Of a stretch of DNA of 64,000 nucleotides, positions 34,090-37,689 are shown piece after piece. The notes beneath the pieces were generated by a model that was not told the DNA's origin, made no database searches, and was given only the letters and a program-made list of their open reading frames with translations. A program made the translations under genes and the position numbers. This stretch comes from Haloglomus salinum (GTDB taxonomy: Archaea > Halobacteriota > Halobacteria > Halobacteriales > Haloarculaceae). Position 1 is the stretch's first letter, and every line of letters begins with the position of its first letter. The stretch spans positions 2,418,001 to 2,482,000 of the forward strand of contig NZ_CP101153.1 in the NCBI RefSeq assembly GCF_024298825.1, in the 5' to 3' direction.

Positions 34090-37000
34090 GTGCGCGAGGC
34101 CGACGAGCGCTACTTCGAGCGCATCGAGGACCAGCTGGACGACGCCTTCGCCGCGGCGCGCGCGGCCAAGGAGCGGGGTGGCGACCCCTCGACCGAGATC
34201 GAGATTCCGGTCGCGAAGGACATGGCCGACCGGGTCGAGAACATCCTCGGCATCGACGGGGTCGCCGAGCGGGTCCGGGAACTGGAGGGGGAGATGTCCC
34301 GCGAGGAGGCGGCGCTGGAACTGGTCACCGATTTCGTCGACGGGAACGTCGGGGACTACGACGGGCGCGCCGGGAAGGTCGAGGGCGCGGTCCGCACGGC
34401 GGTCGCGCTCCTCACCGAGGGGGTCGTCGCGGCGCCCATCGAGGGCATCGACCGCGTCGAACTGCTGGAGAACGACGACGGCACGGAGTTCGTGAACGTC
34501 TACTACGCCGGCCCCATCCGCTCTGCGGGCGGGACGGCACAGGCACTCTCGGTGCTGGTTGCGGACTACGCCCGGGCGCTGCTGGGCATCGAGGAGTACC
34601 GGGCGCGGGACGCGGAGGTCGAGCGCTACGCCGAGGAGATCGGCCTCTACGACAAGGAGACGGGGCTCCAGTACACCCCGAAGGACCCCGAGACGAAGTT
34701 CATCGCCGAGAACCTCCCCATCATGCTGGACGGGGAGGCCACCGGCGACGAGGAGGTCTCGGGCTTTCGCGACCTCGACCGGGTCGACACCAACAACGCT
34801 CGCGGGGGGATGTGTCTCGTCCTCGCCGAGGGTATCGCGCTGAAGGCCCCGAAGATACAGCGCTACACGCGCGGGCTGGACGAGGTCGACTGGCCGTGGC
34901 TCCAGGACCTCATCGACGGGAACTACAAGGAAGACAAGGGCGATGGCGACGAGGCCGAGACGGAGGCCGACGACGACGGTGAGGGGGAGGAGGCGGCCGA
35001 GGACGACGCCGACCCCGAAGCCGACGGCCCCGCGGGCCCGCCGCGCGTCGAGAAGTCGAAGAAGTTCCTGCGCGACCTCATCGCTGGCCGGCCCGTGTTC
35101 GGTCACCCGTCGGAGGCGGGGGGCTTCCGCCTGCGCTACGGCCGCGCGCGCAACCACGGGTTCGCGACAGCGGGCGTCCACCCGGCGACGATGCACCTCG
35201 TCGACGACTTCCTCGCGACCGGGACCCAGATCAAGACCGAGCGCCCCGGCAAGGCGGCGGGTGTCGTCCCCGTCGACTCCATCGAGGGGCCGACCGTCAA
35301 ACTCGCCAACGGCGAGGTCCGGCGGGTGGACGATGTCGACGAGGCCAGGGAGATACGCAACGGCGTCGACGCCATCCTCGACCTGGGCGAGTACCTCGTC
35401 AACTACGGCGAGTTCGTCGAGAACAACCATCCACTCGCGCCCGCCTCCTACACGGTCGAGTGGTGGACCCACGAGATGCGGGACTCCGAGGCCGACGTAC
35501 AGGCGCTCGAGGACGACCCGCACGTCGACCTCGCGCATCCCTCGGCCGCGGAAGCGCTGGAGTGGGCGACGACGTACGACGCGCCACTCCACCCCACCTA
35601 CACCCCCTGCTGGCACGACATCTCCGTCGAGGCGTTCGACGCGCTCGCGACAGCCGCGAGCGAGGGCTCCTGGGCCGAGGCCGATGGGCTGGCGATGCCC
35701 GACGACGACTCCGGGACGGGCGGCCGCGACGTCGCCGGCGGCGAGGGTCGGACCCTCGTCCTCCCGCGCTCGGACCTCGCCACGGACGCACTGGAGGCCC
35801 TTCTCGTCGAGCACACGCAGGGCGAGGACACGCTGACGGTTCCGGACGCGCTCCCGCTCGTGCGCTCGCTCGGACTCACCGAGGGGCTCGAACGGACGTG
35901 GACGCTCGACGACCTCCCGTCCGAGGCCCGCGAGTACGACGGCGGCGACAACGCAATCGAGGCTGCGAACGCGGTCGCCCCGTTCGCGCTCCGCGAGCGC
36001 GCACCCACCCGCATCGGCGCGCGGATGGGCCGCCCGGAGAAGTCCGAGAGCCGCGACCTCTCGCCCGCGGTCCACACGCTGTTCCCCATCGGCGAGGCGG
36101 GCGGCAGTCAGCGCTCGTTCGCCGACGCCGCGAAGTACGCGCCCACGATGGAGCATCCGCAGGGCCGCGTCGACGTGGAACTCGCACGCCGGGAGTGCCC
36201 GGACTGCCGGACCGAGACCTTCCGTGCGCGCTGCCCGGACTGCAACGCCGTCACCGACGCCGTCTACGTCTGCCCGGACTGCGACAGCGAGGTCGTCCCC
36301 GACGAATCCGGTCGTGCGGAGTGCCCGCGCTGCGAGACGCTCGCCTCACCCACCCAGTACGTCACGCTCGATGCCAACGACGAGTATCGTGGCGCGATGG
36401 AGAGCGTCAAGGAGCGCGAGAACGCCTTCGGGACGCTGAAAGCGGTCAAGGGACTCACCTCCGAGGAGAAGGTCCCCGAACCCGTCGAGAAGGGCATCCT
36501 CCGGGCGAAGAACGGCGTCTCGGTGTTCAAGGACGGCACCGTCCGCTACGACATGACCGACCTCCCGGTCACGTCGGTCCGGCCGGAGGAACTCGACGTG
36601 ACGGCCGAGGACTTCCGCGAACTCGGCTACCACGAGGACATCGACGGCCAGCCGCTCCGCCACGACGACCAGCTGGTCGAGCTGAAGGTGCAGGACATCG
36701 TCCTCTCGGACGGCGCGGCCGAGCACATGCTCCGGACGGCGGACTTCGTCGACGACCTGCTCACCCAGTACTACGGAACGGAGCCGTTCTACGACGTGGA
36801 CGAACGGCAGGACCTCGTCGGGGAACTCGTGTTCGGGATGGCGCCACACACCTCCGCGGCCGTGGTCGGGCGGGTGGTCGGGTTCACGAGTGCTGCGGTC
36901 GGTTATGCCCACCCATATTTCCACGCAGCGAAGAGGCGCAACTGTGACGGCGATGAAGACTGTGTTATGCTACTTATGGACGGCCTTCTCAACTTCTCGC

Positions 37001-37689
37001 GGAAATATCTCCCGAATCAGCGCGGTGGACGGATGGACGCGCCCCTCGTCATGTCCTCGCGCATCGACCCCTCCGAAATCGACGACGAGGCGCACAACAT
37101 GGACATCGTCACCTCGTACCCCCGCGAGTTCTACGAGGCGACCCGCGAGATGGCCGACCCGGAGGAGGTGGACGTCCAGATCGCCGAGTCCACCCTCGGC
37201 ACCGACGAGGAGTACCGCGGGTTCGACCACACCCACGATACGACGGACATCGCGCTCGGCCCGGACCTCTCGGCGTACAAGACGCTCGACGACATGGACA
37301 AGAAGATGGACGGCCAGCTGGAGCTGGCCCGGAAGATACGGGCGGTCGACGAGACCGACGTGGCCGAGCGTATCATCGAGTACCACTTCCTGCCGGACCT
37401 CATCGGGAACCTCCGGGCGTTCAGCCGGCAGGAGACGCGCTGTCGGGACTGCGGGGAGAAGTACCGCCGGATGCCGCTCTCGGGTGACTGCCGGGAGTGC
37501 GGCGGCGAGGTCTCGCTCACCGTCTACCAGGGCTCCGTGAACAAGTACATGGACACCGCCCGGCGCGTGGCCGAGGAGTACGGCGCCCGGCCGTACACGA
37601 AACAGCGCCTCGAGATACTGAACAAGGCGCTCGAATCCATCTTCGAGAACGACCACAACAAGCAGTCAGGCATCGCGGACTTCATGTGA
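34090..37689 (+). CDS. polC: DNA polymerase D large subunit (DP2)
   Basis: 1199 residues, GTG start. 'YYAGPIRSAGGTAQALSVLV' lies in the N-terminal half. An acidic linker (about 280-320) precedes 'FVENNHPLAPASYTVEWW'. Zinc-finger pairs begin at 'CPDCRTETFRARCPDCNAVT'. The catalytic motif 'KRRNCDGDEDCVMLLMDGLL' places the probable catalytic aspartates at 953 and 955. The C-terminal zinc motif 'CRDCGEKYRRMP' follows. No intein is present. Codons 934-981 (36889-37032) use A/T-ending codons (TAT, CCA, GTT, CTA, CTT, AAA, AAT, GGA) far more than the rest of the gene. The replicative partner DP1 is not in the window. A T-run terminator follows directly. Confidence 0.96.
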   Translation: MREADERYFERIEDQLDDAFAAARAAKERGGDPSTEIEIPVAKDMADRVENILGIDGVAERVRELEGEMSREEAALELVTDFVDGNVGDYDGRAGKVEGAVRTAVALLTEGVVAAPIEGIDRVELLENDDGTEFVNVYYAGPIRSAGGTAQALSVLVADYARALLGIEEYRARDAEVERYAEEIGLYDKETGLQYTPKDPETKFIAENLPIMLDGEATGDEEVSGFRDLDRVDTNNARGGMCLVLAEGIALKAPKIQRYTRGLDEVDWPWLQDLIDGNYKEDKGDGDEAETEADDDGEGEEAAEDDADPEADGPAGPPRVEKSKKFLRDLIAGRPVFGHPSEAGGFRLRYGRARNHGFATAGVHPATMHLVDDFLATGTQIKTERPGKAAGVVPVDSIEGPTVKLANGEVRRVDDVDEAREIRNGVDAILDLGEYLVNYGEFVENNHPLAPASYTVEWWTHEMRDSEADVQALEDDPHVDLAHPSAAEALEWATTYDAPLHPTYTPCWHDISVEAFDALATAASEGSWAEADGLAMPDDDSGTGGRDVAGGEGRTLVLPRSDLATDALEALLVEHTQGEDTLTVPDALPLVRSLGLTEGLERTWTLDDLPSEAREYDGGDNAIEAANAVAPFALRERAPTRIGARMGRPEKSESRDLSPAVHTLFPIGEAGGSQRSFADAAKYAPTMEHPQGRVDVELARRECPDCRTETFRARCPDCNAVTDAVYVCPDCDSEVVPDESGRAECPRCETLASPTQYVTLDANDEYRGAMESVKERENAFGTLKAVKGLTSEEKVPEPVEKGILRAKNGVSVFKDGTVRYDMTDLPVTSVRPEELDVTAEDFRELGYHEDIDGQPLRHDDQLVELKVQDIVLSDGAAEHMLRTADFVDDLLTQYYGTEPFYDVDERQDLVGELVFGMAPHTSAAVVGRVVGFTSAAVGYAHPYFHAAKRRNCDGDEDCVMLLMDGLLNFSRKYLPNQRGGRMDAPLVMSSRIDPSEIDDEAHNMDIVTSYPREFYEATREMADPEEVDVQIAESTLGTDEEYRGFDHTHDTTDIALGPDLSAYKTLDDMDKKMDGQLELARKIRAVDETDVAERIIEYHFLPDLIGNLRAFSRQETRCRDCGEKYRRMPLSGDCRECGGEVSLTVYQGSVNKYMDTARRVAEEYGARPYTKQRLEILNKALESIFENDHNKQSGIADFM

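Follow-up and report, generated by a model that had tools for sequence, protein, structure and literature searches.

The polC codon patch and the question it raises

Why should the codons over a nearly invariant protein motif, NCDGDED, end so often in A or T when the GC3 of the whole gene is 0.92? This question is raised by the polC gene of Haloglomus salinum, found in the window considered here (the whole stretch of DNA that was analysed, 64,000 nucleotides). An initial annotation had counted about 20 A/T-ending codons at 934-981 and proposed that they are the trace of a lost intein. The genus is represented by four genomes, that of the window itself (G000, H. salinum) and those of three congeners (G001, G002 and G003). 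The features discussed below are as follows:

34090..37689, + strand: polC, open reading frame for the DNA polymerase II (PolD) large subunit DP2, with matches to TIGR00354, PRK04023 and PRK14714; product of 1199 aa, intein-free at both known sites
36862..37029, + strand: silent zone of low GC3 and high divergence (the patch), codons 925-980
36862..36942, + strand: left half of the patch (U), codons 925-951, shared with G002 and G003, not with G001
36943..37029, + strand: right half of the patch (M), codons 952-980, unlike G003 and closer to G001 and G002
36942..36943, + strand: pol-IIa intein insertion point, empty, N951/C952; inteins there in G001 and G003
37029..37030, + strand: pol-IIb intein insertion point, empty, G980/R981, the downstream edge of the patch

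In the polC frame (TIGR00354, PRK04023), codon 934 starts at position 36889, so the numbering and coordinates of the initial annotation are right, and its count was borne out as well. Codons 934-981 (36889-37032) include 28 G/C-ending codons out of 48, the minimum among all 48-codon windows of polC, and A/T-ending codons make up 20 of the 47 at 934-980 as against about 7-8% elsewhere in the gene (binomial P 4e-12). The scan of GC3 along the gene that the annotation had proposed therefore returns the patch as the lowest window. When GC3 is corrected for amino-acid content, the lowest 56-codon window of polC deviates by -0.30, the remaining windows having a mean of 0.00 (sd 0.03) and the next-lowest a value of -0.16. 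In homologues, the full trough runs from codon 924/925 to 978/980 (36859-37029), about 28 codons on each side of the insertion site.

Intein insertion sites within and at the edge of the patch

The polC gene is uninterrupted in H. salinum and in G002, and carries an insert exactly at N951/C952 in G001 (a mini-intein of 179 aa, which does not contain the endonuclease domain PF14528) and in G003 (an intein of 515 aa with a LAGLIDADG endonuclease domain; PF14528, E 5e-14). The insertion point between the Asn and the Cys of NCDGDED, which had been given in the initial annotation, is thus the one used in the congeners, and we identify it with the pol-IIa site of the literature (PMC4071816). According to that survey, pol-IIa inteins are found in many Halobacteria genomes, often as mini-inteins, and an early invasion of the site, with later loss in some lineages, is proposed (PMC4071816). 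The site is occupied in most of the 146 genomes of the family studied here. Most pol-IIa inteins end in Gln (..SQ/C, ..NQ/C) and not in Asn, a few being Asn-ended.

In 18 of the analysed family genomes a second set of inteins, with the junctions S...HN/SMDAPL, is inserted between G980 and residue 981, and this site is taken to be pol-IIb. Of the two insertion points, pol-IIa (N951/C952) thus falls inside the patch and pol-IIb (G980/R981) at its downstream end.

Distribution of the trough across intein states, family and order

From the family set of 146 genomes, 101 polC genes were put into codon-aligned classes, namely 27 empty alleles, 26 with inteins of endonuclease size, 30 with mini-inteins and 18 with pol-IIb inteins. 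Against a background GC3 of 0.87-0.89 in the compared classes, GC3 by bin over codons 925-980 is 0.63-0.78 in empty alleles, 0.68-0.84 in endonuclease-bearing alleles and 0.75-0.92 in mini-intein alleles. With phylogeny ignored, the mini-intein class is distinct from the empty class (P 9e-5) and from the full-intein class (P 8e-4), and empty and full-intein alleles show no significant difference (P 0.12), the empty ones being deepest if anything. Comparisons made within genera give the same direction for mini-intein alleles, the GC3 of which is closer to the norm in 7 of 9 genera when the patch is taken as a whole (P 0.027) and in all 9 when the left half U is taken (P 0.004).

The trough is widespread in the order. 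Among 85 distinct intein-free haloarchaeal polC genes with a flank GC3 >0.75, the mean patch deficit is 0.21 and the deficit exceeds 0.1 in 73%, and no control window of equal length on either side of the patch has a deficit >0.1 in these genes. A box with two free edges fitted to the 85 genes places the trough at codons 924-978, with its midpoint at codon 951, the insertion site. As the trough is present in most intein-free haloarchaea, the patch is not peculiar to H. salinum and says more about the site than about any single loss; the loss in this species in particular, of which the initial annotation took it as a footprint, may have occurred. In six low-GC3 polC genes of the order, patch and flanks are on average equal. 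Among 44 intein-free polC genes from outside the haloarchaea (Methanosarcina, Methanothrix, Archaeoglobi, Thermococci and others) no trough was found (patch 0.53, flanks 0.52), though most of these genes have a low GC3, against which a trough is harder to see; the catalytic motif as such therefore does not need these codons.

Two further observations concern composition. One of the few high-GC3 polC genes outside the haloarchaea, the intein-free L367 of a Thermococcus MAG, has a trough over the same codons (0.81 in the flanks and 0.63 in the patch). An early indication that the GC3 of the patch does not depend on that of the host was dropped, as it failed when confidence intervals and a larger set were applied, the slopes being too imprecise to argue for a foreign origin.

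Silent divergence and the history of the two halves

Silent identity inside the patch is near saturation and changes in blocks. For pairs with a background silent identity of 0.78-0.85, the two windows of the box have values of 0.57 and 0.61, and the adjoining windows about 0.8. The variance of identity over 157 close pairs is 3.3 and 2.8 times the binomial expectation in the two box windows and 0.9-1.6 times elsewhere. Single pairs show one-sided blocks: L072 and L076 have identical silent codons at 8 of 27 positions left of the site and at 23 of 27 right of it, and the reverse is seen in G002 and G003 (22 of 27 left, 6 of 25 right). One-sided blocks and overdispersion together fit an episodic replacement and not merely a smooth rise in rate. 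Amino-acid differences within the replaced blocks are increased, and those in the flanks are increased as well, which makes them uninformative.

The same blocks appear when H. salinum is compared with its congeners. Over polC its closest relative is G001, the genome with the mini-intein, but the left half U matches G001 at only 13 of 27 silent codons (P 2e-6), as compared with 23 of 27 for G002 and 24 of 27 for G003, and the 17 consecutive codons directly before the site are identical in H. salinum and G003. In the right half M, silent identity to G003 is 0.24, and 18 of 27 codons match each of G001 and G002. As U groups with G002 and G003, and M resembles G001 and G002 and not G003, the two halves differ in history. 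In addition, U is common to an empty allele (G002) and an occupied one (G003); the scar is therefore older than any loss in H. salinum, or else its movement has nothing to do with such a loss. G003 may have been invaded while already carrying this left half; alternatively, H. salinum and G002 may both descend from occupied alleles. An earlier intein occupancy in the H. salinum lineage is plausible.

The one clear transferred tract that we found comes from two species of another genus, L116 and L080, the pol-IIa inteins of which are 93% identical over 1521 bp, in genes that differ at about a third (32%) of background silent codons. The stretch of polC best conserved between them, codons 933-969, has the intein within it; silent differences are found at 2 of 35 codons (permutation P 0.014), GC3 is about 0.6 in both genes, and we take the pair as a recent intein transfer with a co-inherited flank tract. 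A second transfer pair, L096 and L074, gave no significant tract (P 0.13), and among full inteins the similarity of the intein fails to predict that of the patch once the background is controlled.

No donor of the H. salinum patch was found when 293 genomes from the order were scanned at the DNA level, or among viral contigs, plasmids and phages, and in the family no pair is significantly closer in the patch than in the flanks by silent identity after correction. A tree of the patch, which the initial annotation had proposed, would have no power: by nearest-neighbour concordance, 27-codon segments taken anywhere in polC fail to recover the neighbours. The sole match in the viral collection, L120 (IMGVR_UViG_3300001598_000765), is a low-GC3 DP2/polC, 53% identical, on a contig filed as viral that is probably a fragment of an archaeal chromosome.

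Other intein sites

A scan of the genus found GC3 troughs also around the MCM intein site, at polB-b and downstream of it, where an empty polB-c is expected. In the same scan there was no trough at the intein sites of atpA, rir1 (three sites), rpoA2, rfcS and polB-a, and no centred trough at that of gyrB. Among 30 intein-free family members, both GC3 and silent identity are low in MCM over query codons 109-234, a box that takes in the MCM intein sites and about 25 codons beyond them at either end; in polB, again for 30 intein-free family members, such a box lies at about 163-234 and encloses sites b and c. The pattern goes with heavily invaded sites and not with rarely invaded ones.

Several particular observations were made at these loci. 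GC3 is 0.36 just downstream of the MCM intein in H. salinum mcm (L168), and 0.44 in its polB (L170), 28-60 codons past the polB-b intein, where the empty polB-c would lie. Directly at the insertion point of polB site a, H. salinum has LDLASLYP (L170) and the congeners LDLKSLYP (L167, L162), a change that may give resistance to invasion. In the rir1 gene of G003 (L158, G003:C34), a single ribonucleotide reductase frame contains four inteins and is broken right behind the last of them, by a frameshift or an assembly error.

Repeated homing as the probable origin of the patch, and alternatives

Taking together the site, the shape of the box, its dependence on intein state, the one-sided episodic blocks and the recurrence at other hot sites, we think that the patch is probably an exon zone rewritten by recurrent pol-IIa homing and repair through gene-conversion tracts, an explanation that includes the H. 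salinum allele as an empty target carrying the scar. The cutting and repair, the donors and the cause of the A/T bias are what we infer from these patterns. The LAGLIDADG endonuclease encoded by the intein would cut an empty site between codons 951 and 952, and the resected break would be repaired from another polC allele, one bearing the intein at a gain and one free of it at a loss or reconversion, with some 55-85 bp of flank being copied on one or both sides. Many rounds with unrelated donors would give the segment a history unlike that of the rest of the gene and saturate its silent sites, and codon bias would decay because the segment spreads with the drive and not with host fitness; we infer that segments borne in this way escape weak codon selection. 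Once the endonuclease has decayed to leave a mini-intein, cutting would cease and the codons would be expected to drift back to host usage. The tract shared by L116 and L080 reaches about 55 bp to either side of the site, a length similar in magnitude to that of the box (about 80-85 bp to either side). In Haloferax, intein homing was shown experimentally to proceed by homologous recombination, to depend on repair and to be sensitive to flank length, its efficiency falling from 90% to 20% as the flank homology is reduced from 850 to 250 bp (PMC3024317).

The weak point of this gene-conversion account is the low GC3 itself. Haloarchaeal donors have a high GC3, so co-conversion alone leaves the A/T bias unexplained; moreover, co-conversion acts directly on alleles that have gained the intein, but the empty alleles are deepest if anything. 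That haloarchaeal genes carry a scar made by the drive at the sites favoured by inteins, either through homing that rewrites about 85 bp on each side too often for codon bias to persist or through hosts that recode their flanks to escape, seems to us about as likely as not.

A special case of recurrent homing is the history favoured by the initial annotation, in which an ancestor gained the pol-IIa intein together with flanks co-converted from a donor of lower GC and then lost the intein precisely. We regard it as possible but rather doubtful. It agrees with an empty site that has a trough in a genus where two of three congeners are occupied, with the plant cox1 intron, for which a tract was kept after presumed loss (PMC3192709), and with an early invasion of pol-IIa and later losses as proposed in the Halobacteria survey (PMC4071816). 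It is weakened by the left half common to G002 and G003, by the possibility that G003 was invaded when it already had this half, and by the absence of a low-GC donor from the scanned genomes of the order, phages, plasmids and viral contigs. What is left of the original proposal is that the silent patch is tied to the homing site and behaves as conversion of flanks would; a gain from a low-GC donor and a loss in this lineage may have taken place.

Mutagenic repair, as put forward for mobile introns of fungi (PMC5378118), is to our mind unlikely. Recurrent cuts with error-prone resynthesis would increase the mutation rate up to about 85 bp from the site. With purifying selection leaving only silent changes that drift toward A/T, this would account for the A/T bias, for the symmetry about the cut and for the deepest trough being in the empty, that is cuttable, alleles. 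The one-sided saturated blocks of G002 and G003 and the tract that travelled with the transferred intein of L116 and L080 suit conversion better, and the asymmetry between T- and A-ending codons expected from single-strand deamination is not seen.

A still smaller chance is given to resistance by recoding, in which intein-free hosts would be selected for silent divergence beside the cut. Repair would then draw on their own sister chromosomes and not on the incoming intein allele; in a GC-rich gene, such divergence would be a shift to A/T-ending codons. The deep trough of empty alleles, its recovery in mini-intein alleles, the saturation between species and the dependence of Haloferax homing on flank homology (PMC3024317) would all fit, but alleles bearing the endonuclease show the trough too. 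Finally, A/T-ending codons might be imposed by an intrinsic constraint at the catalytic NCDGDED, whether from codon choice, from an overlapping element or from RNA structure, the last of which had been named in the initial annotation as a possible refutation. Such a constraint is suggested by the nearly invariant motif under the patch, but we reject it as very improbable because patch GC3 is 0.89-0.98 in relatives, intein-free or with a mini-intein, that have almost the same protein, the 44 other archaeal genes have no trough, and the patch codons vary between species where a constraint would conserve them.

Comparison with known systems and significance

In fungal mitochondria, SNP density is raised within about 70 nt of mobile self-splicing introns (Repar and Warnecke 2017, PMC5378118). 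As in polC, the excess diversity lies near the homing site and is found with mobile and not with immobile elements, and the candidate mechanisms are likewise mutagenic repair and co-conversion from outside donors. The haloarchaeal case is different in that it concerns inteins in an archaeal chromosomal gene, measured between species, and a trough in codon composition that is repeated at several genes, is present in element-free alleles too and is weak at elements that have no endonuclease. The group I intron of plant cox1 also has silent exon changes beside its homing site, one of them kept after presumed loss, but its tract is canonically 3-21 bp, on the 3' side only and of conserved sequence (PMC3192709), unlike the polC zone of about 165 bp, which is two-sided and different in each lineage. 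The survey of Halobacteria pol-IIa and pol-IIb inteins deals with the same two sites of the same gene and, in its available part, treats the inteins and does not describe silent patterns of the flanking gene (PMC4071816). For the neighbouring MCM inteins of Haloferax, homing sites are close, events at one affect the next and a flanking residue is co-converted during invasion, although there it is a matter of one amino acid and of competition in homing and not of a silent zone (PMC10643990). Diversity near homing sites and co-conversion tracts were therefore already known; our literature search, which mostly did not reach subscription papers, found no account of troughs in codon bias, be it at intein sites or in archaea.

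A codon-bias trough centred on the target would be a mark of homing that persists after the element has gone and that one genome is enough to reveal; the scar, if true, makes it possible to read gene-drive activity, whether current or former, from one genome that has no intein. It would allow natural gene drives to be mapped in archaeal replication genes (polC, mcm, polB), and would also allow natural tract lengths to be estimated and tests of whether drives mutate or recode host genes. Conserved regions with such troughs can mislead phylogenies and the detection of transfer based on composition.
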